Shown here one piece after another: positions 2,925-64,000 of a DNA stretch of 64,000 bases. The notes under the pieces are model-generated. The model searched no databases, had not been told where the DNA came from, and saw only the letters and a list, made by a program, of their open reading frames with translations. Source of the stretch: a virus; IMG/VR virus record IMGVR_UViG_3300019754_000001, positions 29,905 through 93,904 of that record; one strand, given 5' to 3'. The position numbers and the translations under genes were made by a program. Each line of letters begins with the position of its first letter. Position 1 is the stretch's first letter.

Positions 2925-3725
2925 ATGAATAAAAGTTTCACAGTTTTAGGAAACGCACATCTAATAAAGCAGTTCTTAGAAGATATAAGAATAAAAGGAT
3001 ATGAATTTAAAGGAAATGAATTTATATTACAAATATTCTTAAAGTACTTTGAAGTAGCAGCAGAGGCAGATAAATCACACTATGACCTAGATACTCAATA
3101 TAAGGATGCTTTAGACCATTACAAACAATTAGAATTAGATGATATAGCTGATAAGGGAGCAAATAGTGTACTAAATGACCTTATGTATAAAGCCTTCACA
3201 CATACTTACCAGTACGAAAAGCAGCAAGAAGAGAAAGAGAAAGTAGAAAGAGCGTATAGGGAAAAAGTAGAAAGGATGGCAGAAGGATTTTGGGAAAAGG
3301 GTGGCATACGCATAATTCATATAAACCGTGTGGATTACCTCCAACCTCCCCCCGGATTTAAGTTAAGTAGTTCAGATGTAATAGGTGTAATAGACCATAA
3401 TAGAAAAGAATCTGCAAAAGAGTATGGATTTAAATTAACAAATCCAAATACAGAAGAAATGCTAGAAAAATTAGCAAGTTTTTATACACCCAAAGAAGAT
3501 AGTTTAAATATGGGCTTTCTTACCTACGTTACAAACGATAAAGAAAAAATACATAGTATAGACACTGAAGTATTTGCAGTAAGAGGTACAGGTATTCAGA
3601 AGATGACTTTACTTGAAGCTCTCCAAATGCAAGATGTTATTATTTTTGCTAGAGAAGAGAACGCTAACAAGTGTGCATACGATAGGCACGTTGAAAGATT
3701 AAAGAAAGTATATAAACAGAAATAG
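2925..3725 (+). CDS. Hypothetical protein with central coiled coil, 266 aa
   Basis: 266 aa. Residues from about 60 to 130 are highly charged and helical (a run rich in EKQQEEKEKVERAYREKVERM), typical of a coiled coil. The N and C parts look globular. I do not recognise a family. The last section contains GTGIQKMTLLEALQMQDVII, which could be a helical binding element. It ends with TAG, which shows that TAG is a normal stop in this genome. The next gene starts 2 nt later. Confidence 0.75.
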   Translation: MNKSFTVLGNAHLIKQFLEDIRIKGYEFKGNEFILQIFLKYFEVAAEADKSHYDLDTQYKDALDHYKQLELDDIADKGANSVLNDLMYKAFTHTYQYEKQQEEKEKVERAYREKVERMAEGFWEKGGIRIIHINRVDYLQPPPGFKLSSSDVIGVIDHNRKESAKEYGFKLTNPNTEEMLEKLASFYTPKEDSLNMGFLTYVTNDKEKIHSIDTEVFAVRGTGIQKMTLLEALQMQDVIIFAREENANKCAYDRHVERLKKVYKQK

Positions 3726-4092: not shown

Positions 4093-4395
4093 ATGAGAGA
4101 ATTTAAAACAAGCCCATATGGAGATATAGTAGATTTAGATGATAAAGAAACATTTAAGCACTTACCAAATACCATTAAATCACTGGGAAAGCTAATGCTT
4201 AGTGAAATAGGATATGCTATTTGCTATATGGATTATTGGCATAAAGATGTATTTAAAATAGATGACCCACAGAGAAAAAGAGTAAACAAGCTAATTAAAG
4301 ACTTCACAGAGAACGAAATAAATAACTATAAGAACGTTAAGTGGTATAGAGAGCAGGTATTCTTATTTCAGGATGAGATAGAAAATATGTGTTAA
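4093..4395 (+). CDS. Hypothetical protein, last gene of the plus-strand operon, 100 aa
   Basis: A 100-residue protein of helical character with no known motif (MREFKTSPYGDIVDLDDKET at the start). It is the last plus-strand gene before the convergent virion operon; its stop lies about 20 nt upstream of the bidirectional terminator. Function unknown. Confidence 0.6.
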   Translation: MREFKTSPYGDIVDLDDKETFKHLPNTIKSLGKLMLSEIGYAICYMDYWHKDVFKIDDPQRKRVNKLIKDFTENEINNYKNVKWYREQVFLFQDEIENMC

Positions 4396-4408
4396 AGATT
4401 AGCACAAA

Positions 4409-4457
4409 CAAAAAAAGGGGAACCCTACCATTACGGTAGAGTTCCCCTATTTTTTTT
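4409..4457. terminator. Bidirectional rho-independent terminator between convergent operons
   Basis: A 13-bp hairpin with one mismatch (arms 4417-4429 and 4435-4447, loop ATTAC) is flanked by A6 on the left and T8 on the right. It therefore ends in a U tract when read from either strand. It closes the plus-strand early-type operon and, on the other strand, the virion operon, whose last stop codon lies inside the T run. Confidence 0.93.
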
Positions 4458-7400
4458 ACAACCACCTCTGGAACATAGCCAATCCAGGGATTGCTCTAAA
4501 AGTTCCTTTAATGAGGTAAGTTTCATCATGTCTAGCATCATCGCTAGTTGCGTATTTAGTAACCACGCTAGGAATATTGACTACATTGTCAATTGTTCTT
4601 AGAAGTGGGGATGGATTCTTAAACATATCCATAAGAGCTTTAGGGTTCATATAGAGTGATACATCATCTTGCAACCTAGATACTGTCTTATATGCTAATC
4701 TGTAACCTTCAGCCTTCTCATCTTCATCATCAAATGCTAAATTAGCTATCAACATAGCAGCACTCATCATAAGAAACCATTGAATCTCCTTCAAGTTTCT
4801 TCTCATGTTGTCTAAATCTGTTTGCATCTCTTTATTATCTGCATTAAACTCTTCTCCAACTGCTAAGTTCTTTAATAGTATTGATTTCATTATCTTAACA
4901 CTATTGGCAAAGCCTAAGTCTTTATAGGTTCTATATCTACCCTTCACAGGGTCTCCCATCTGGTCATCTTCTTTATAAGTTTCTATTCTAGTTGCAATAC
5001 CCTCAGCTATCCAAGATTTAAGAGCTAATGTAGCCCTCCCTATTAAATACTTCTTAGCTTGCATAGGGGAGGAGGGGTCATAGTTACCATGAACCCTCTT
5101 AATTAGCTGTATTAGATTGTTTCTCTTCTTTGTAAAGCTATTTGACTTAGTAGCATCATACATAGTATCCCATTGCTCACTGTCTAAAACTTCTTCTGAC
5201 ATGTTAGCGTGGTTATCATAAGACTCCCACAAGCTAACTTCTGTGCCGTCTACAGTTTGAACTTTAGTGTGCATTAGATTAGCAACCAACACAGCAGCTT
5301 GATTTAAATATTCAGCCCTTTTAGTAAGTTCCATTGGGGCAGCCAAGCCAAGTTTCTTATTATGCTCTTTAATCTTAGAACTCCCAGAGGCATCCTCCAA
5401 CAAGTCAAACATAATACCATATTTTGCCATAAGACTTCTAACTTTAGTAGAAACATCATCAACACGTCCTGTAGCAGATCTCTTCATTGAGTGCTTTAAT
5501 ACACCCATAGCTCTATTAAGTTCCTGCTTAGTGAAATACCTACCAGAAGCAGCTTCTACACTATTTGATATATACCCATATAAAGTATTTGTAAGTGCTG
5601 AGGAAGCATTCCAACCCAAAGATGTAAAAAAAGTTAACTTTAAAGCTTTATCGAATGCCTTGACGGGTGATACAAATCCAGTATCTTGTACCGCATCTTT
5701 CCTTGCCTGTATACTTAATTTTCTTTCTTCATAATCTTCTTTTTCTACTCTGCCGTGCATCATATCTAGCTCTAATTCATTCTTTTCTTTTTTTAATGCT
5801 TTTAATGTTTTTCTTGCCTCTTTTGTTAATCCTACCTTGGTTGATAAAATTCCACCCTTATTATGGCCTTTATTGTATAATATATTATCTATTTCATACT
5901 CTAACTGCCTAACAACATTAAGTTTTTCTCCCTTACCTATCTTATTTCTTATAATGCTATTGGATTTTGATTTTTCTATTTCTATTGATTTTTCTACCAT
6001 CTCCTTTCCTATTGTTAATATATCTTCTACTGCTGATTTTCTTTTATAGTTAATTGCTGAAAAGGAAAACATTTTAAATGCTTTTATAACATCAGAAGAC
6101 TTGCTATTAAATTCTCTATCGTAGTCACTTTTTATACTATCTCTAGTTCCTTTAACTACATCTAAAATATCTTTTTGTATTTTTATTGATGCTTCCGTAG
6201 CCCCTTTACTAGTAATGTGGCCATTAAATACAGACTCTTGTCTTATATAGTCTTTTTCAGCCTTACTTAATGCAACTCTTAATTTTCCTACAGTATCCTT
6301 AGTAAACTTAATAGGAACTGATTTTATAGGCTTACCGTTACTATCTCTCAACTGAGAATCTAAATCATCCTGCTCCTCTGAAAGGCCCCCATAGACTCTA
6401 TCTAATAGAGACTTTCCTGTAATTACACCTGCTATACCCTCATCTCTAACTTTTTCAAGTATGTCTTTATTTACCTGAGGTAAGTGATTATGTTGTAAAG
6501 CGTATGCAACGTGGGGTGGAAAGTAATCCTTAAGGTTGTTAATATTCTCTGTTATAAAATTATAAAGCTTTCCGTATGTTTCTGGATTGTTTTGTATAAA
6601 TTCATAATCTTTATCATACCATTCACTCTTTTGTCCATTTACCTCACTTTTTGGTGCATAGGATAGAAATCTTGTAACACTGGTAAAGTTAGTAGTTTCT
6701 ACATTATTACTAGTTAACTCTTCATATAACTGCATTGGGTTATTATAAGATTCCCACTCAGCTATCTTACCCTTGTATTCTGCTATTGTTTTAAATCCTA
6801 CCCTCCCCGCATCGTGGTATCTCTGAAAGGTTTCAACAACTGCCACTTTAGATTTATTATAAGATGTAATCTTCTTTTCCATAGATGATACCAATCTCTC
6901 TCCTACAACTTCACCTAATAGGTCTTTTATCTTAGCAATCTCTTCATTTCTAGCGTCCTCATTATCATTACCAAAAAGGATATTATAGTTAGGTAAATAA
7001 ATATTATCCATAAAGTCTTGATAAGCTTTCTTTTTTTGATTCTTCTTTCTAGCATCCTTAACCCTATTAAGTTGACCTAACTCTACTCTTTGTTTAGATT
7101 TCCAATCATAGTAGCTTTGTGAAAAAACATCTACAAGATTTTTAGTTATATTACCATCAGCATCTTTCTGTAACACCCTCTCGTTAAAATCTTTTCCATT
7201 CTTATCGAATCCAGTCTCCTCTAATATCTTAGTCAATTGAATACCAATAGTTTCCTCAAATTCAGCCATAATGTTTCTATTAGTGTCTTTAAGGACTCCT
7301 GATAGATAAGATACTAATTTATTATCTACCCTAGAACTATCCATTACAGCAGACCAAAGTAGCCCTACATCTTTAATTTCTGTTAAATCTTTTAATGGTA

Positions 7401-57241: not shown

Positions 57242-57298
57242 GCCTTAGTCTTTTATTGTTACTATGTAGTGTATTATGAAATTTGAGTAGTCAAGAGT

Positions 57299-57365
57299 AT
57301 CTTTAATTTGTAACTTTGTGTCCTTGAAAACGAGCTTTCATGCCTCAAAGTTACAAATTAAAGAT
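57299..57365. repeat. Perfect 20-bp inverted repeat with inner stem
   Basis: Arms 57299-57318 and 57346-57365 are perfectly complementary over 20 bases. The 27-nt loop contains a further TGAAA/TTTCA stem. There is no T run after it on either strand, so it is not a usual terminator. A cruciform, an operator for a dimeric protein or the stem of a leftward transcript's leader is possible. Confidence 0.85.
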
Positions 57366-57547
57366 GACTTTTGCAATACCCAAAATATCAAAAAACTAGC
57401 ATAAAGAAGAAAGGTAAATAAAATAATATAATAAAGAATAAGAATAAAGAAATAAAGAATAAGAATAAAAAAGATAAAGAATAAGTTAAAAGAATTAGAT
57501 TGGGGGATAGTTTATATTTAAGTTTAATATAAATTATATCTTCAATG

Positions 57548-57707
57548 AAGCCATAGAAGAAGACTAGTCGGCGGCTATTGATTAATCCCCCACTTAATAC
57601 CCCCACGCTTAATACTTAAAGATTTTACAACAATAGTAGTCTTACAGGATTTAATCTACTACGTTAGATTGAGCGGCGCGCCGAACTACTGCTTTCTTCT
57701 ATGGCTT
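57548..57707. promoter_or_regulatory. Two divergent copies of CTTCTATGGCTT motif
   Basis: The minus-strand copy (57548-57564) and plus-strand copy (57694-57707) form a 14-base inverted repeat AAGCCATAGAAGAA/TTCTTCTATGGCTT. Each copy is preceded, in its own direction, by CGCCG and ACTA. Each points toward the genes it would serve, the leftward operon and the rightward gene set. A third copy stands before the 1533-aa gene. No host-type promoter was seen in the rightward region, so a promoter for a phage polymerase is a reasonable reading. Confidence 0.5.
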
Positions 57708-58038
57708 AAGTGCTAAAATACTTAGAATTTATATATAGGAAAGACACTTGATAAATAACCCCCCCCCTTCCAATAATTCATTAAGAACAATAGATATAAA
57801 ACAATAGCTACTGGAAAGAGAATAGAGATGAGCCCCTCTATATACTACTTATTGTTGAAAAGGAGGTATTGAAAAAGAAAGGAGAGGAGTAGTGGGGGGG
57901 GTTATTATAGAAAAGTGATATAAAAAAAGGAAATATAAGGGGGGGGTATAATGTAAGGTAGATAATATAGAATAGGAGAATGTGGAGGGATATTATGTGG
58001 GAGGGTATTATAAGGGAAGGTATCGTGTTGGAGATATT

Positions 58039-58072
58039 GGGGGGAGGTGGGGGGGGGAGAGGTGGGGGGGGG
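58039..58072 (+). other. G-quadruplex-prone G-run cluster
   Basis: G6, G9 and G9 runs (58039-58044, 58049-58057, 58064-58072) lie within 34 nt, with further G8 runs near 57893 and 57940. Long enough runs can split to give four G tracts. In an AT-rich genome this is striking and only the plus strand carries the Gs here. Possible roles are replication start or polymerase arrest. Confidence 0.7.
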
Positions 58073-58202
58073 AGTATAAAAAATTTTTATATAAAAAAAA
58101 ATTAGTATGTCGGTATATATATAGAACACTTTAGGAGACCCCTACGGTGTATTGGTTGTATTGAAACCCTACGGGGGAGTAAGCAGATACAGCTCGGTTT
58201 AA

Positions 58203-58227
58203 AAGTGAACCGGATAACGAATCACTT
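58203..58227. repeat. Short inverted repeat before the 169-aa gene
   Basis: AAGTGA (58203-58208) and TCACTT (58222-58227) are separated by 13 nt and end 17 nt before the start codon at 58245. It may be an operator or a leader hairpin that hides the translation start. Confidence 0.5.
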
Positions 58228-58244
58228 CAAATACATTTACAGTT

Positions 58245-58754
58245 ATGGCACAGCCGAAAGCGGAAGCTACATTCAAATCAACGTCTTTATTTAACGGTTT
58301 TAAAGTCCGCCAAGACGGTTCAGTTTACATTTCAACATCCTTAGCAGTAACTAAAGCTACTGAGGTAATATCCAAATCGGGACGAAAAAGGATATACAAT
58401 ATCGGCGATAAAATGCCGTTAGCTATCCCAAGTTCTACAAAGTTCATGAGAGCAATTGGACTGGACTGGACACCTGGAAAAACAATGCTGGATATCTTTT
58501 CCAGAGAGTTAACAGTAGGCACAGCCTACGAGGGCACAGATGGCAAGGAATTCATCTTCGGTTTAGACAAGGATGGTAATCCCTATGAGGGCAATCCTGT
58601 AGGGACTGCTATCGAACGTTTCGAAGCTACGGCTTCAGAAGAACAAGAGGTTAACACACACCTCGTTAATGCAATTGAAACAGCTCAGGCTAATGCCTAC
58701 CTAAACATGGTTGGTGCAATGGCTAAAGAGGAAACTTCTGCCGACTTGGACTAA
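58245..58754 (+). CDS. Probably abundant hypothetical protein, 169 aa
   Basis: 169 aa, with a compact N-terminal half (KSTSLFNGFKVRQDGSVYISTSLAVTKATEVISKSGRKRIYNIGDKMPLAIP) that has the strand pattern of an OB-like or beta-barrel fold. Its C-terminal part is acidic and helical, ending in EETSADLD. An acidic tail with a beta barrel recalls single-strand DNA-binding proteins, but no motif proves it. The gene uses GC-richer codons than its surroundings, has tandem TAA stops and is followed by a strong hairpin, all pointing to high expression. It is the first gene of the rightward set. Confidence 0.7.
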   Translation: MAQPKAEATFKSTSLFNGFKVRQDGSVYISTSLAVTKATEVISKSGRKRIYNIGDKMPLAIPSSTKFMRAIGLDWTPGKTMLDIFSRELTVGTAYEGTDGKEFIFGLDKDGNPYEGNPVGTAIERFEATASEEQEVNTHLVNAIETAQANAYLNMVGAMAKEETSADLD

Positions 58755-58761
58755 TAACAAA

Positions 58762-58787
58762 ATCCCCTCACTTAATTGTGGGGGGAT
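58762..58787 (+). terminator. Hairpin after the 169-aa gene
   Basis: A 10-bp stem ATCCCCTCAC/GTGGGGGGAT (one G-U pair) with a 6-nt loop lies 8 nt after the stop. No U tract follows, so it may stabilise the 3' end of the mRNA or act as a weak terminator instead of a full one. Confidence 0.55.
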
Positions 58788-59669
58788 ACTTGTTAACACC
58801 TGAGGGGCAAGGATAGACTCTCACTTAGTGGATTAATACTACCCACTGGTGGAGGGGCTAATCAATGCTCCACATCCAACTCATGCTACTGATAGTGCTA
58901 CATTACTACGTAATGTTCAGCTCACGGAAAGCCCTCCCATGTAATCTTTTTTACAGGCTACGCAAGAGACCAAGAGGCCAACATATACAAGCCTCCTCCG
59001 TAGATTAGATGAATGAATAAAATAACACAACCCCTTAAGAAGTTTTTTCGCAATATCTTATAGGGTAGTCTCCTCCATTCCTAAGTTTAGGGGGGGGAGA
59101 CAATATATTGTTAAGTTACTAGAGTAGTGGTGATTGTAAGTGGACCAGGTTAATATGGACAGACTCCTAACATACCTCCACCACCCCCCTACAACACTGA
59201 CTTAACAACAATAGTAGGTCACAAAGTCCTCACCTATGCCTTACCTTAATATGTCATGCTTCTGTATGTCATGCTATTGTAGAGTGTGGGGGGGCAGACC
59301 TATGCTAGAGTAGTCTTGGCTAAGATAAGCTTTAGTAAAGTATACTTACTGATGCTTATGGGGCAGTCTGTATGAGGATAAAGACACCCCCCCCCACACA
59401 TCATACTCACCTCAATTCCCCTCCCTACAATAAAACCGATACTGATTCTTTAGTATTCTATTGGTAGTGAAGGTCTCCCCACCCCACACCCTCTCCCTTA
59501 CTTTCCTCACTTCTATAAATTAGATAAGATATCTATTGTTTAAGATGAATGAAATTAAGACTACATTTTATTATAATGTGGAGGAAGTATGTATAACATA
59601 TATTAATACCGTTAAATATACACACACGCTCAATACTCGGCAGAAAACACTAGAGTATAAAACAATATA
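58788..59669 (+). other. Non-coding stretch with hairpins and G/C homopolymer runs
   Basis: No convincing gene on either strand over about 880 nt. Visible elements: a CATTAC/GTAATG hairpin (58901-58915), a GTCTCCTCC/GGGGGAGAC stem with inner CCTA/TAGG (59068-59101), an 11-nt direct repeat TATGTCATGCT (59250-59260 and 59265-59275), and runs of G or C of 6-9 nt (near 59091, 59186, 59286 and 59389). A short frame starting at 59536 is rejected as coding because it runs through the tandem hairpins that follow. Confidence 0.5.
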
Positions 59670-59670
59670 C

Positions 59671-59755
59671 CCCCAGACTGCAAAGTCAGTAAAAAATAGT
59701 AAACTGGGGTTAGCACATCAGACTGTAAAGTCAGGACAAATAGTAAACTGATGTG
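59671..59755 (+). ncRNA. Tandem structured RNA element with covarying stems
   Basis: Two adjacent copies share one architecture. Copy 1 (59671-59709): stem CCCCAG/CTGGGG. Copy 2 (59714-59755): stem CACATCAG/CTGATGTG. Inside each is a GACT-GNAA-AGTC hairpin with a GNRA tetraloop (GCAA, then GTAA), then a strand ending in AAATAGTAAAC. The outer stems differ in sequence but keep pairing, while the inner part is conserved. That is what selection on RNA shape looks like. They might be a tandem ligand-binding or protein-binding RNA. Confidence 0.65.
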
Positions 59756-60300
59756 TTATTTTAATAGTAAATACAACCTCACTAAAGAGTATAACAAGCG
59801 TTAAGGCATACCACACCAATAGGTGTAAGGTCCCCACGATAGAGGGAGCAAAGGTATAGTAAATGAGGCAACTCTTATCTTATTTAACCTGTCAAACCTC
59901 AATATTGAGAAAGACATAAACCCACAGTTTGGTTAGCTGTATAATCATGGAATAAAACTTATAGTGGGATAATGACCCACCACGCTGCATTGATATGTAG
60001 TAAAACAAACGATGGAGTTATAATAACTCCTGCTCCTATTAGTCTCAGGGGGCAAACTAAGAGACTAAATTTAAAACATCTGCAAAACAAGGAATTGCTG
60101 CTACGGAACGATGTGTAGTAGCATTGAGAATTTGAGCAGATGTTTTTAATAAACTTAAGCCTCCAGAGGCCACACTTACAACTTGAGACGTATGTCCAAT
60201 AGTTTGCACAATAAGCATTAGTCCACTTCGTTCAGAAGAAGATAGGTGTTGTAAGTGAAAAGCAGTGAAATGCTGTAATTTAAACTCTAGTATGTTAAAT
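59756..60300 (+). ncRNA. Densely structured non-coding region, part 1
   Basis: Plus-strand hairpins follow one another: ACACC-AATA-GGTGT (59813-59826), CTCAATATTGAG palindrome (59898-59909), GTGGG/CCCAC (59964-59980), GGAGTTA/TAACTCC (60014-60030), TTAGTCTC/GAGACTAA (60039-60068), an 11-bp stem AAAACATCTGC/GCAGATGTTTT (60073-60146) enclosing an 8-bp stem (60097-60122), and a perfect 10-bp stem CACTTACAAC/GTTGTAAGTG (60173-60257). No gene fits. This looks like a large folded RNA or several in series. Confidence 0.55.
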
Positions 60301-60800
60301 ACTAAATCTCTGAAAATATGTGGAAAGTGTAGGTTATGGAGAGTTGAGTAATGAAGGGCTAATACCTGGAGCTTAGATATCTACAACACTATTTAACTTA
60401 TTAGGGTTTATTTATTAAAGAAAAGCTGCACCCTCCGCAATTAAATACAAACCGGGTTGTAGCCTAAATAGCTTCACAGTGATGTGTGGAGTAGACGAAA
60501 GTCTGAGGAGATGAAAGAGCTCTTATTGACAACACCCTTTATCAGGGGCGAAACTCCGCCTGCATTAAGCGTCTCGGAAATTGTCAATATATATATTATG
60601 TAGGATGAAGGGGGCTACCGAAAGCTCTCCTTCATACCTATGTATTAAAGCCTCATCGTGGGCATTATCTAGTTCGTCCTTACATCTAATATGTGAGGAA
60701 TCTACCCCTTAAAGCTGGAGGGATAGTAGGACAAAAGAAGCTCTAAGGTTACCAGATAAGTGTAGGTAATCTTAGTATCAACACTAGTTACTATATGCAT
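60301..60800 (+). ncRNA. Densely structured non-coding region, part 2
   Basis: Hairpins: AGAC-GAAA-GTCT with GNRA loop (60493-60504), ATTGACAA/TTGTCAAT (60525-60588), ATGAAGG/CCTTCAT (60605-60635), TCCTTACAT/ATGTGAGGA (60677-60699), CTACCCCT/AGGGATAG with one mismatch (60702-60726) and an 11-bp CTAAGGTTACC/GGTAATCTTAG stem with one G-U pair (60743-60775). The region reads continuously on from part 1. About 190 nt at its start (60301-60490) show fewer obvious stems. Confidence 0.55.
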
Positions 60801-61146
60801 GTAGTAGCGACTAATGGAGCAATTTGTTAGTAAATACGTTTAGAGACAACTCTAGTCTTGAAGCGGTATAATGGGCGGTTCGAAACGTTTGTTATATTAA
60901 AAAGATGAATCACTACTTATATAGAGATGCTCCTTTAGAGGGGAGTATGTAAGACTCTATAGTGAGGATTCAGATTACTTGGGAAGAGCCTCATGGAGAG
61001 CCCTTCCCTCGTAATCTAAATAAGGCTACCCTTAGCCTACTAATAATAAGGAATGGTGCAGAAGATTAGCTCTTCGGTCTATCGAAAGATAGGTTTAAAC
61101 CCTCTACGAATGTGTAGGTGTGGAGTTCAAACCAATAAATTAAGAT
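60801..61146 (+). ncRNA. Densely structured non-coding region, part 3, leader of the 122-aa gene
   Basis: A 13-bp stem with a symmetric 2x2 internal loop (60972-61017: AGATTAC+GGGAAG with CTTCCC+GTAATCT) is followed by GGCTA-CCCT-TAGCC (61024-61037), GAAGA-TTAGC-TCTTC (61061-61075), a GNRA hairpin CTATC-GAAA-GATAG (61079-61092) and CTAC/GTAG (61104-61117), with GGTTT/AAACC (61092-61133) able to close the last part. It ends 13 nt before the start codon at 61147, so it could also control that gene. Confidence 0.55.
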
Positions 61147-61515
61147 ATGACGATTATAGAAACAAAAGCCTATCTTAAAGGCTACCTAGCTGCACTGGGG
61201 ACTAATGTGCAGAATACTAGAGATGAAGATTCCTTATGGAGTCTCAACCAAAAATTAATGTATAACGAGATAGTAACAGAGGTTGGAACCTTGGGATTTA
61301 CGATCAATAGGGGGATATGCCCTGTTGGTGGAAATGTTACTTACGCTTGTACAAGTCCCGAAAATTCTACTGTAGATATATATCTGGGGTGGGCAGACAA
61401 CAAGTTCTTTAAAGAGGCCTTTGAAGGACTCGAAATGGAGTTTGTATACCAAGAGACAAGAATAAGCATAGAGGAGCTTGAAAAACTCTTATATGTTTTA
61501 GAGATAAAAGACTAA
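61147..61515 (+). CDS. Hypothetical protein within the RNA-rich arm, 122 aa
   Basis: 122 aa, acidic, helical at both ends with a central beta section (GFTINRGICPVGGNVTYACTSPENSTVDIYLGWADNKFF). No known motif. The start follows a structured leader and has no Shine-Dalgarno sequence. It stands alone between two non-coding stretches, so it is probably read from a long transcript. Confidence 0.6.
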   Translation: MTIIETKAYLKGYLAALGTNVQNTRDEDSLWSLNQKLMYNEIVTEVGTLGFTINRGICPVGGNVTYACTSPENSTVDIYLGWADNKFFKEAFEGLEMEFVYQETRISIEELEKLLYVLEIKD

Positions 61516-61634
61516 TAATATTTAATCTTCAATTAGCGACAATAAGTGAGAGTGTCCGCTTCATTAAGAAGAAGTAAGAGATACTGTTAAAATACTATTA
61601 TACACTTATAATAAAAATATGATGTAAAATAAAT

Positions 61635-61802
61635 ATGAACTATCGAAGAGAAGCTAGAGAAGTAACACAAAACCATTATGGAGGATATTGTGAGATGTGT
61701 AGAAAGTTAGGAATTAAAATAGTTCCTTATCATAAATTTACTATGGAATTATATGATAAAATTAAAGAGTTAAGTAAAATAAAAAAAGATTTTAAAAGAT
61801 AA
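61635..61802 (+). CDS. Small basic protein with CxxC motif, 55 aa
   Basis: A 55-residue frame from ATG at 61635 to TAA at 61800-61802. It starts MNYRREAREVTQNHYGG, contains YCEMCRKLG (a CxxC pair) and ends in a lysine-rich helix (DKIKELSKIKKDFKR). The paired cysteines and charge suggest zinc or nucleic-acid binding. The A-rich leader resembles those of true genes here. Moderate confidence, since it is short and lacks neighbours to couple with. Confidence 0.5.
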   Translation: MNYRREAREVTQNHYGGYCEMCRKLGIKIVPYHKFTMELYDKIKELSKIKKDFKR

Positions 61803-62100
61803 GCCCTAATTAAACTCCTAACACAGTTAAGACTACCCTCACTAACGCATGCAAAGCGAATAAAGGGAAACGCTGTGGCCTATTGGCAATAGGTGGAGAG
61901 TATTAATTGGTATTTAAAGAATTGGAGTGCCTTGCCAAAGCTAGGTAAAATACCCACTCACACTAAGATTCAATAGATACTTGCCAAGGGGCTTTATATT
62001 ATTAAAGGCAGGCCACCCTTCTGTGGTAATTCTCCCTTATGATATATTAGAATTTGAGGACTTTGGGGAAGTTTTAAACAAAGATAAAGACCTGAAATTA
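61803..62100 (+). ncRNA. Structured non-coding region between small genes, first part
   Basis: Hairpins include CCTATT-GGC-AATAGG (61879-61893), GGTATTT/AAATACC (61909-61954) and a compound TGCC..CTTTA/TAAAG..GGCA stem near 61983-62012, then CCAC/GTGG around 62020. No coding frame of note. The style is the same as in 59.7-61.1 kb. Confidence 0.45.
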
Positions 62101-62565
62101 CACGTGCCTGAAAGAGCATGAATAAGAATTTATAGTTACTGACTGAACGATACTATATATAGAGGGATAACAACCCCACAGGTATTGAGTTGTCCCCCCC
62201 AAACTGTCGTAGTATGGGGGAGCTCAGACAGGACAAGGAAAGTAACGAGAATGATAGACTTAAACTATTAGGCTACTGAATCCTCTACGTAAGTAGAAAG
62301 CTTATTGGAAACAATAGGAAGATTGTTACCTCTGACAAGGTAATATAGTGGAGAATGGCACAGGTATGTGAGATAAAGCTCACATCTATCATTACAATCT
62401 TAACAAGCGTCAAGCATGAAGCCCTGAGAGGGGTGGAATAGTTTAAATCGATATACAACACTGTCTCCTTTATTGGAAGTGGAAAATGTAGAAGATTGTG
62501 ACTATGACCTAAACCCTACCATGTTGGAGGGCATGGTGCTAAAATATTAACTCTAATTTAAAGAC
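62101..62565 (+). ncRNA. Structured non-coding region with GNRA-capped hairpins, second part
   Basis: A stem GGGA-CAAC with bulge pairs with GTTGTCCC (about 62172-62204). A GNRA hairpin TCTAC-GTAA-GTAGA (62284-62297) is followed at once by another, CTTATTG-GAAA-CAATAGG (62301-62318). An 8-bp stem AAGATTGT/ACAATCTT (62319-62326 with 62394-62401) then closes a multibranch loop holding TTACCT/AGGTAA (62326-62343) and ATGTGAG/CTCACAT (62366-62385). The regular, adjacent stacking is typical of compact structured RNA. Confidence 0.58.
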
Positions 62566-63309
62566 ATGAAAGTAAACATTAATCGCCTTGAAGATGAGGA
62601 ATACTTAACTGAAATTAAGTTAGGTAAGGAAAGAATAGTCAGGAGGTGGTATAGAGATACACCCCATATTTACGATTACACAAAGTTTTTAAGACTAGTT
62701 GATAAGTTAGTCGGCAAGCATGTTAATGTGCTTAAAAGAAAGTTACGTAAGGATAGGTGCTATCAATCTCCAGAACAGATAGTGAGGAGATATATGTTAG
62801 TGTTGAATAGGAATGGAGACATTATAAATGAGGACGGCTTAGTATATAAACCTACTCACGGAAGGGCTAACAGTTATTTAGTTAACTCTGATGGTATAAT
62901 ATCTATTACATATGAGAGAGTAGCTAAAAAGCAACCCACACTGACAAAGAGTGAAATTCTAACAAAAAAGATTGATAATCTTAGTGAAGCATATGGATTA
63001 GCTTTGAGGCTCTATAAATGCAGACAAGATTGGGGATTAATACCTCCATCAGATAGAAGGAGAGCCATGCGTAATATCCTATACGCATATCAAAGCCAGG
63101 CTGATGACCTATATACTGCTTACATGCACTCCAACAATTATAATACTAACAAATTTGATGGAGACAGAGTTAGAAAAATACCACAAAGGTATATAAAGGC
63201 TCTAAAAGGTAAGAAAGAGCATGTGAAAGTAAGGAAGGTGGAAGTAATTAAACCCACCCCCATACGAGTAAACTCTCCATATATCCACCTACCTGGAATA
63301 TGTGGATAA
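62566..63309 (+). CDS. Basic hypothetical protein, 247 aa
   Basis: 247 aa, strongly basic (many R and K, especially 50-70 and 215-235), mixed helices and strands. I read KLVGKHVNVLKRKLRKDRCYQSPEQIVRRYMLVLNRNGDIINEDG as a helix pair followed by a beta hairpin. The composition suits an RNA- or DNA-binding protein, and its place beside structured RNAs invites that idea, but no family is recognised. It begins about 165 nt after the multibranch element. Confidence 0.65.
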   Translation: MKVNINRLEDEEYLTEIKLGKERIVRRWYRDTPHIYDYTKFLRLVDKLVGKHVNVLKRKLRKDRCYQSPEQIVRRYMLVLNRNGDIINEDGLVYKPTHGRANSYLVNSDGIISITYERVAKKQPTLTKSEILTKKIDNLSEAYGLALRLYKCRQDWGLIPPSDRRRAMRNILYAYQSQADDLYTAYMHSNNYNTNKFDGDRVRKIPQRYIKALKGKKEHVKVRKVEVIKPTPIRVNSPYIHLPGICG

Positions 63310-63341
63310 TACTGAATTATTATTAACATTAAATATATATT

Positions 63342-63794
63342 ATGAAGTACGTAAAAGCAATTTATGAAAAAGGTCAGCCGATAACAATGGTTGAGAAAGA
63401 GGAAGCCACTGAATTGGTATCTAAAGGAACACATATTGTTGTATCTCGCCAAGAGGGAGAGGTCAATAGTAAGCATCACGAAGTTATCCCATGCCTTGGC
63501 ACAGCCGAGTGGGTAAACGATGCAAACGGTAATAAGGTTAAGCTCAATGTAGAGCAAAACCGTAAGTTCGAGTCAAGCAAAGTATATCCGAACAGCACCA
63601 AGATGGGAGCAGGAGCCTCACAGATTGGAACAGTTCGCCGGAAAGGAAAATACAACTATCCTTCAAAAGAGGAAACAGTTGTAGAAACTTACCTCACAAA
63701 GACAGGCATAGCTAAATTGGACAAATGCTCTACCAGTGAGGAGGAAAATGCTGTACTGGAAAAGTATAGTAAAAACCGACATCACGCAATATAA
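63342..63794 (+). CDS. Hypothetical protein, possibly abundant, 150 aa
   Basis: 150 aa, basic, starting with a small beta module (MKYVKAIYEKGQPITMVEKEEATELVSKGTHIVVS). The middle is less ordered (SKVYPNSTKMGAGASQIGTVRRKGKYNYPSKEE) and the end helical. Codons are GC-richer than the surroundings, like the 169-aa gene, suggesting strong expression. Its stop codon lies inside the left arm of a perfect 12-nt inverted repeat. Function unknown. Confidence 0.62.
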   Translation: MKYVKAIYEKGQPITMVEKEEATELVSKGTHIVVSRQEGEVNSKHHEVIPCLGTAEWVNDANGNKVKLNVEQNRKFESSKVYPNSTKMGAGASQIGTVRRKGKYNYPSKEETVVETYLTKTGIAKLDKCSTSEEENAVLEKYSKNRHHAI

Positions 63795-63978
63795 CATGTT
63801 TCCCACCCAAACAGTGAGGGTGAGTCGAAAGACTAAAAGTATCTGAATATTAAGTTTTAAACTTTGCATGTACTATGAAGTTGAAGATTTAAGAAAGTAT
63901 ATACATGGAAACATGTTAATCCCTCGCGCACATATATTGTTTGATTTGATTTGATTTAATACTGCGCGTATACTTTCT
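63792..63978 (+). ncRNA. Large 3' structure with two interleaved inverted repeats
   Basis: TAACATGTTTCC (63792-63803) pairs perfectly with 63907-63918, enclosing a GNRA hairpin AGTC-GAAA-GACT (63823-63834). A second 10-bp stem AGAAAGTATA/TATACTTTCT (63892-63901 with 63969-63978) stacks on CGCGCA/TGCGCG (63925-63930 with 63963-63968), whose loop has a TTTGA tandem repeat. The two structures interleave, so they either form a pseudoknot or are alternatives. Confidence 0.6.
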
Positions 63979-64000
63979 ATGACAAGGGGGTAAATATAAA

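Follow-up and report, generated by a model that had tools for sequence, protein, structure and literature searches.

A gene-free region of a crAss-like phage as a candidate large structured non-coding RNA

The viral record IMGVR_UViG_3300019754_000001 of IMG/VR carries, at 59669-61135 of the stretch analysed here, a gene-free region that is probably a plus-strand structured non-coding RNA, situated in an RNA locus of the Crassvirales and acting as an RNA or RNA-protein structure. The stretch, referred to as the window, encompasses 64,000 nucleotides (positions 29905-93904 of the 93,904-base record, and hence its end), and its numbering is used throughout. The presence of a large structured non-coding RNA on the plus strand is well supported by folding energy, strand asymmetry, nested long-range helices, the lack of a coding signal and genomic context. 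A more specific reading is advanced tentatively, at somewhat under even chances: the phage would encode one folded RNA that measures 1.2-1.4 kb, exceeds GOLLD, ROOL and OLE in size, and forms an undescribed class within the ribozyme/RAGATH RNA locus of the Crassvirales. If true, this larger RNA would represent an added class and provide a model for a role in infection.

Whole-region fold energies were compared with those of dinucleotide shuffles. The plus strand of 59660-61146 folds at -443 kcal/mol against -357 +/- 7 for its shuffles (z -12.3), and the minus strand at -395 kcal/mol (z -8.2 against its own shuffles), whereas a downstream coding control, 62566-64000, gives z -5.8 on the plus and -3.9 on the minus strand. 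When the region is folded in 800-nt pieces, the energies are -45 and -63 kcal/mol per kb relative to shuffles, beyond all 40 other pieces of the same size from the same genome (mean -5.7, extreme -33.7 kcal/mol per kb). The excess also surpasses that of the ribozyme-bearing loci of related phages. The shuffled-sequence control proposed in an earlier, sequence-only reading of this DNA is thus passed on the plus strand. That reading had also counted at least fifteen stems, a figure exceeded by the maximum-expected-accuracy fold, which contains over 40 helices that are 4 bp or longer and have a mean pair probability of at least 0.5. Hairpin stems of at least 8 bp are enriched threefold (11 against 3.4 expected, with a maximum of 9 in 100 shuffles), and those of at least 9 bp number 8 against 1.3 expected. 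GNRA tetraloops capping stems of at least 4 bp occur six times on the plus strand and never on the minus; the shuffle mean is 0.96, and none of 300 shuffles reaches six. They include the two originally placed at 60497 and 61084 on the plus strand only, which were verified as AGAC-GAAA-GUCU and UAUC-GAAA-GAUA. The heptamer UAGUAAA is also found six times in the region, and any 7-mer is that frequent in only 2 of 200 shuffles.

No protein appears to be concealed here. From the open reading frame (ORF) list no gene fits over 58755-61146, as had been claimed for the shorter region, and the longest frames inside the region under genetic code table 11 are of 43-53 aa. In its best frame, 59660-61146 has a hexamer coding score of -0.155, compared with -0.154 for a shuffle of the region and 0.4-0.8 for genes of the phage. 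Parts of the region contain larger frames when read with alternative genetic codes, with hexamer scores still at the shuffled level. The ORFs flanking the region are complete and separate, and have no relatives with which they could be compared as one split protein. A spliced or frameshifted protein, named earlier as a possible refutation, is supported neither by a coding signal nor by a flanking split gene. The extent of the structure required adjustment: 59756-61146 is indeed structured, but the structured part is better taken to run from about 59669, so as to include a tandem pair of small elements, to about 61135, shortly ahead of the ORF that starts at 61147. The absence of genes extends further back, to 58755. 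A promoter scan returned fewer sites than shuffles, and the terminator-like sites (8 against 3.8 in shuffles) all lie on the minus strand and are unhelpful. Taken together, the energy, the GNRA bias, the enrichment of stems and the non-coding hexamers favor a plus-strand RNA over either a protein gene or a structure at the level of DNA.

The predicted anatomy of the RNA, from the pair-probability fold (P denotes pair probability), is as follows.

59669-59711, plus strand: small element A, with outer stem CCCCA/UGGGG, inner GACU-GCAA-AGUC and tail AAAUAGUAAAC (fold model, A/B comparison).
59714-59756, plus strand: small element B, a tandem copy of A, with outer stem CAUCA/UGAUG and inner GACU-GUAA-AGUC (fold model, A/B comparison).
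59777-59802, plus strand: 5' strand of helix P1, CCUCACUA-A-AGAGU, then AUAACAAGCGUU as the optional extension P1c (fold model).
59833-59845, plus strand: 5' strand of helix P2, CCCACGAU-A-GAGG, P 0.76-0.90 (fold model).
60073-60146, plus strand: hairpin arm, an 11-bp stem (60073-60083/60136-60146) over a 10-bp stem (60096-60105/60114-60123), P 0.96-0.99; z -5.4 for 60001-60150.
60153-60349, plus strand: long branched arm closed by 60153-60158/60344-60349, P 0.81-0.98.
60471-60504, plus strand: hairpin 60471-60492, then the GNRA hairpin AGAC-GAAA-GUCU at 60493-60504 (fold model, GNRA count).
60597-60644, plus strand: long hairpin of 8+7+5 bp, P 0.79-1.0.
60651-60662, plus strand: 3' strand of P2, CCUC-AUCGUGGG (fold model).
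60743-60831, plus strand: three stems in succession of 11, 9 and 9 bp, with a GCAA loop on the last (fold model, GNRA count).
60884-60896, plus strand: 3' strand of the optional P1 extension, AACGUUUGUUAUA, pairing over 13 bp with one G-U to 59790-59802 and rivaling a local hairpin.
60954-60967, plus strand: 3' strand of P1, ACUCU-A-UAGUGAGG, mean P about 0.9 (fold model).
60968-61021, plus strand: hairpin abutting the 3' strand of P1, P 0.99-1.0; z -5.9 for 60901-61050.
61080-61133, plus strand: 3'-end GNRA hairpin UAUC-GAAA-GAUA (61080-61091) and an arm closed by GGUUU/AAACC (fold model, GNRA count).

The core, 59777-60967, is modeled as a single large domain, about 1.2 kb in size, which P1 and P2 close; hairpins form an appendix on its 3' side, and the tandem small elements lie on its 5' side. 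P1 pairs 59777-59790 with 60954-60967 across about 1.2 kb, and P2 is nested within it, spanning about 0.8 kb; in the model, this nesting suggests one large RNA. The long-range duplex energy between the sides of P1, taken in one frame, is -52 kcal/mol against -34 +/- 4.9 for shuffles, a value reached by 2 of 1000 of these, and the two best long-range pairs of windows, at -65 and -58 kcal/mol, lie well outside the same distribution. The P1 extension is in register with P1, costs 2.6 kcal/mol and displaces P2 in the model. Elements A and B, each of 43 nt, retain the loop and tail, while two outer C-G pairs are replaced in both partners, one by A-U and the other by U-A. These compensatory changes are the sole covariation available, and are weak evidence with two sequences, as 115 of 500 shuffles do as well. 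No third copy of the element was found in the window or in the related loci.

Large ornate RNAs are rare, their function is mostly unknown, and three of them form RNA-only assemblies (PMC12286853). GOLLD is a large, many-armed, non-coding RNA of phages and prophages, often longer than 800 nt and often near tRNA islands, and ROOL is likewise a large ornate phage RNA near tRNA islands, one example of which measures 659 nt (PMC12286853). The RNA of the window resembles GOLLD in being phage-encoded, hundreds of nucleotides long, many-armed and non-coding, and ROOL in being large, ornate and phage-borne; it differs from both in matching no Rfam model, from GOLLD also in its apparently greater length and its lack of covariation support, and from ROOL in being about twice as long. 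A homo-oligomeric cage counts among the features by which a GOLLD RNA is recognized. Group I and group II introns, which are common in crAss-like phages (PMC10136315), are also large structured phage RNAs, but no Rfam intron model matches here, and the ORFs flanking the region are separate, with no split gene shown.

Among 4227 Rfam families, none matches the region at gathering level, and relaxed searches (E values up to 5-10) returned only chance matches resembling microRNAs, long non-coding RNAs or small nucleolar RNAs. The models for GOLLD, ROOL, OLE and group I/II introns, and those for hatchet, hammerhead, twister and RAGATH-6, -7 and -14, gave no match in the region; nor did the hatchet model, searched on its own, in the entire record. 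The earlier proposal of a large structured RNA, either of the GOLLD or ROOL class or new, stands in part, as regards the plus-strand RNA; given these negative model searches, the RNA is assigned neither to GOLLD, ROOL or OLE nor to the introns or known ribozymes. No homologue of the region, by sequence or structure, was found in phage records, IMG/VR or GTDB contigs. Several apparent relatives were rejected: a lone AT-rich coding match from blastn of the region against phage records; a 22-nt match, the best among 35 related viral records, which is antisense to a methylase-like gene and was judged to be chance; and 76 and 120 stretches of IMG/VR that fit patterns derived from A and B, none of which has the structure of the element. 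Neither R2, a model of elements A and B, nor R3, which models the 3' domain, matched anything in the related loci. The RNA is best described as an orphan candidate large ornate phage RNA, for which a manner of working like that of GOLLD and ROOL is possible by analogy.

The phage itself is, from its genes, crAss-like and distantly related to the Suoliviridae. Its major capsid protein matches Crass_capsid (E 3e-76) and its terminase and portal match the corresponding PHROGs families, which bears out the crAss-like identity assumed in the sequence-only reading. Identity of the terminase to those of GenBank phages does not exceed about 40%, the top matches being Suoliviridae such as cr55_1, cr50_1 and cr1_1; close relatives were found neither in IMG/VR nor in GTDB contigs, and a window-specific terminase pattern had no match, so that the lineage is a deep and lonely one. 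By the ORF list, the structural genes form an arm that runs leftward to 57241, and the opposite arm runs rightward from 58245.

The location of the RNA corresponds to a recurrent locus. In Suoliviridae of several subfamilies (cr55_1, cr1_1, cr10_1, cr53_1, cr118_1, cr113_1, cr115_1, cr114_1, cr60_1, cr109_1, cr6_1 and cr4_1) and in Steigviridae (cr128_1), a gene-free stretch of 0.5-2.2 kb is found close behind the start of the arm that diverges from the terminase, with tRNAs 3' of it in several of these phages. The stretches or their near surroundings hold hatchet ribozymes, RAGATH-6, -7 and -14 and hammerhead-like RNAs. Such loci, in the same place and on the same strand as the RNA of the window, occur in cr53_1, cr4_1, cr114_1, cr115_1, cr60_1 and crAss contigs borne by metagenome-assembled genomes; the last of these have hatchets together with RAGATH-7 and RAGATH-9, here too opposite the terminase. 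RNA modules are swapped among the phages as patches. One motif, M2, consists of CUCAAUAACUUCCCAAGACAUUGAGGGCACCAGUUUCUUA ... UAAGUUUUAGGUGUAAAAUGCA, 46 and 20 nearly invariant nucleotides that flank a variable insert; it is almost invariant across the Suoliviridae and Steigviridae cr128_1, and has no match to an Rfam family. Its P3 stem covaries: three of the pairs have changes in both partners, 99% of cells are paired, and the covariation score is above that of all 500 shuffles.

L097:816-3057, L104, L105, L106, L109, L111, L112, L114, L192, L193 and L197, opposite the terminase: a single gene-free locus with hatchet, RAGATH-6/-7/-9/-14 and hammerhead-like RNAs (Rfam models).
L097:1369-1489, L098:2743-2888, L096:2774-2945, L102:2493-2606, L103-L108, L110, L114 and L100: M2 (alignment A2).

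The region of the window is likewise gene-free, follows the first gene of the terminase-divergent arm, is on the strand opposite the terminase and probably has tRNAs near. It differs from these loci in that it has no sequence in common with them, matches no ribozyme or RAGATH model, and has a higher folding excess. Searches of the window with blastn, nhmmer and covariance models detected none of their RNA modules (the M2 model, R1, gives at best 9.5 bits, E 0.87), and it is thus by position and strand only that the RNA is placed in this locus. Homology between the gene upstream of the region and those of gut relatives was also considered and rejected, as the alignment is unconvincing, so that the shared locus rests on position and not on gene homology.

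These relatives also furnish the main rival explanation, namely that separate structured RNAs, perhaps with unfamiliar self-cleaving ribozymes among them, stand in a row and cut up a long transcript, as in the gut Suoliviridae loci. We consider this explanation unlikely, though clearly the strongest of the alternatives, because relatives carry such rows: RAGATH-6, -7 and -14, hatchets and a hammerhead stand there in series, with their modules exchanged, and the tandem elements A and B resemble independent small modules. Set against it are P1 and P2, which are nested and enclose 1.2 and 0.8 kb, and the lack of any match in the window to a known ribozyme model, the one hammerhead-like core, at 60503, having been rejected for want of a plausible stem II. 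Much less credible is a very long structured leader that regulates either the 122-aa ORF at 61147 or the rightward operon at the level of translation or stability; the structure does stop only about 10 nt upstream of the ORF start, but 1.4 kb far exceeds usual leaders, and in relatives it is differing genes or tRNAs that come after the locus. Slightly less credible still are inverted repeats working as DNA, in a replication origin, a packaging site or a recombination-prone junction. The region is near a divergent junction in which poly-G/poly-C runs abound and 57299-57365 forms a perfect 20-nt inverted repeat, yet there is no DNA-level reason for the bias toward the plus strand in GNRA loops (6 to 0) and in energy (-443 against -395).

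Several points weigh against the favored interpretation of one large plus-strand RNA. Folding energies well below those of shuffles are seen on the minus strand too, as is expected of any DNA rich in inverted repeats. With no homologue found, the fold is without proof by covariation across phages. The P1 extension and P2 compete with each other in constrained folds, and the longest single long-range helix, of 13 bp, is matched by 4 of 60 shuffles, so that no one helix is decisive; the displacement of P2 and these shuffled helices make the details of the fold provisional. Transcription, stability, the boundary of a single molecule and function are aspects that we infer from the model and by analogy.

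As a structured RNA of this kind, it would most likely work as follows. A rightward transcript that includes the first gene of the arm would continue through the RNA, which would accumulate during infection as a stable folded particle, alone or with proteins. Its role would be that of an RNA or RNA-protein structure and not of a messenger, as GOLLD and ROOL are thought to act (PMC12286853). The RNA probably lies upstream of tRNA genes: four plus-strand tRNAs are found at the other end of the record (407-2101 in record numbering), on the same strand, and would be about 3.3 kb downstream of the RNA only if the linear record circularises, an arrangement as in gut relatives and for GOLLD and ROOL. 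Some crAss-like phages grow on Bacteroides, which makes the locus accessible to direct testing.

The recurring locus also gives hatchet and RAGATH RNAs identified phage carriers. In 2015, hatchets were known only from metagenomic DNA and from no sequenced organism (PMC4604424). Our literature search, with subscription journals outside its scope, yielded no paper linking crAss-like phages to hatchet, hammerhead or structured non-coding RNA.

The surroundings of the RNA in the window comprise the following features.

57242-58244, no strand assigned: divergent junction between the leftward structural arm and the RNA-carrying rightward arm (ORF list; non-coding hexamer score).
58245-58754, plus strand: 169-aa gene that opens the rightward arm, of no known family (ORF; coding score 0.56).
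58755-59659, plus strand: gene-free leader with poly-G/poly-C runs, moderately structured (coding score -0.31; fold z -4.3 on plus).
61147-61515, plus strand: 122-aa ORF directly 3' of the RNA, of no known family (coding score 0.38; no family or tblastn match).
61516-62565, plus strand: second stretch poor in genes, with a single 55-aa ORF and weak structure (ORFs; fold z -4.1; coding score).

The 169-aa product has nothing above cut-off in Pfam, PHROG or NCBIfam and no tblastn match in phages. Of the 10 runs of G or C in the 94-kb record that reach 7 nt or more, 8 fall within 1.6 kb around the divergent junction (57759-59395), and the inverted repeat at 57299-57365 has a loop of 27 nt and a fold z of about -6 on both strands. 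A strong plus-strand hairpin region (58726-58875, z -5.5) at the end of the first gene is perhaps an attenuator or processing site, and a stable structure at 4351-4500 (plus z -6.0), in the gap between convergent genes ending at 3725 and 4456, is possibly a terminator. In the related phages, the further non-coding modules M1 (L097:1131-1370) and M3 (L096:2501-2664, L002:1453-1614) are patches common to genera, with about 79-97% identity and no Rfam match. Finally, two environmental crAss-like contigs (L066:4472-5324 and L086:4981-6632) have a 172-nt module in common, at 81% identity, within gene-poor stretches upstream of the terminase.
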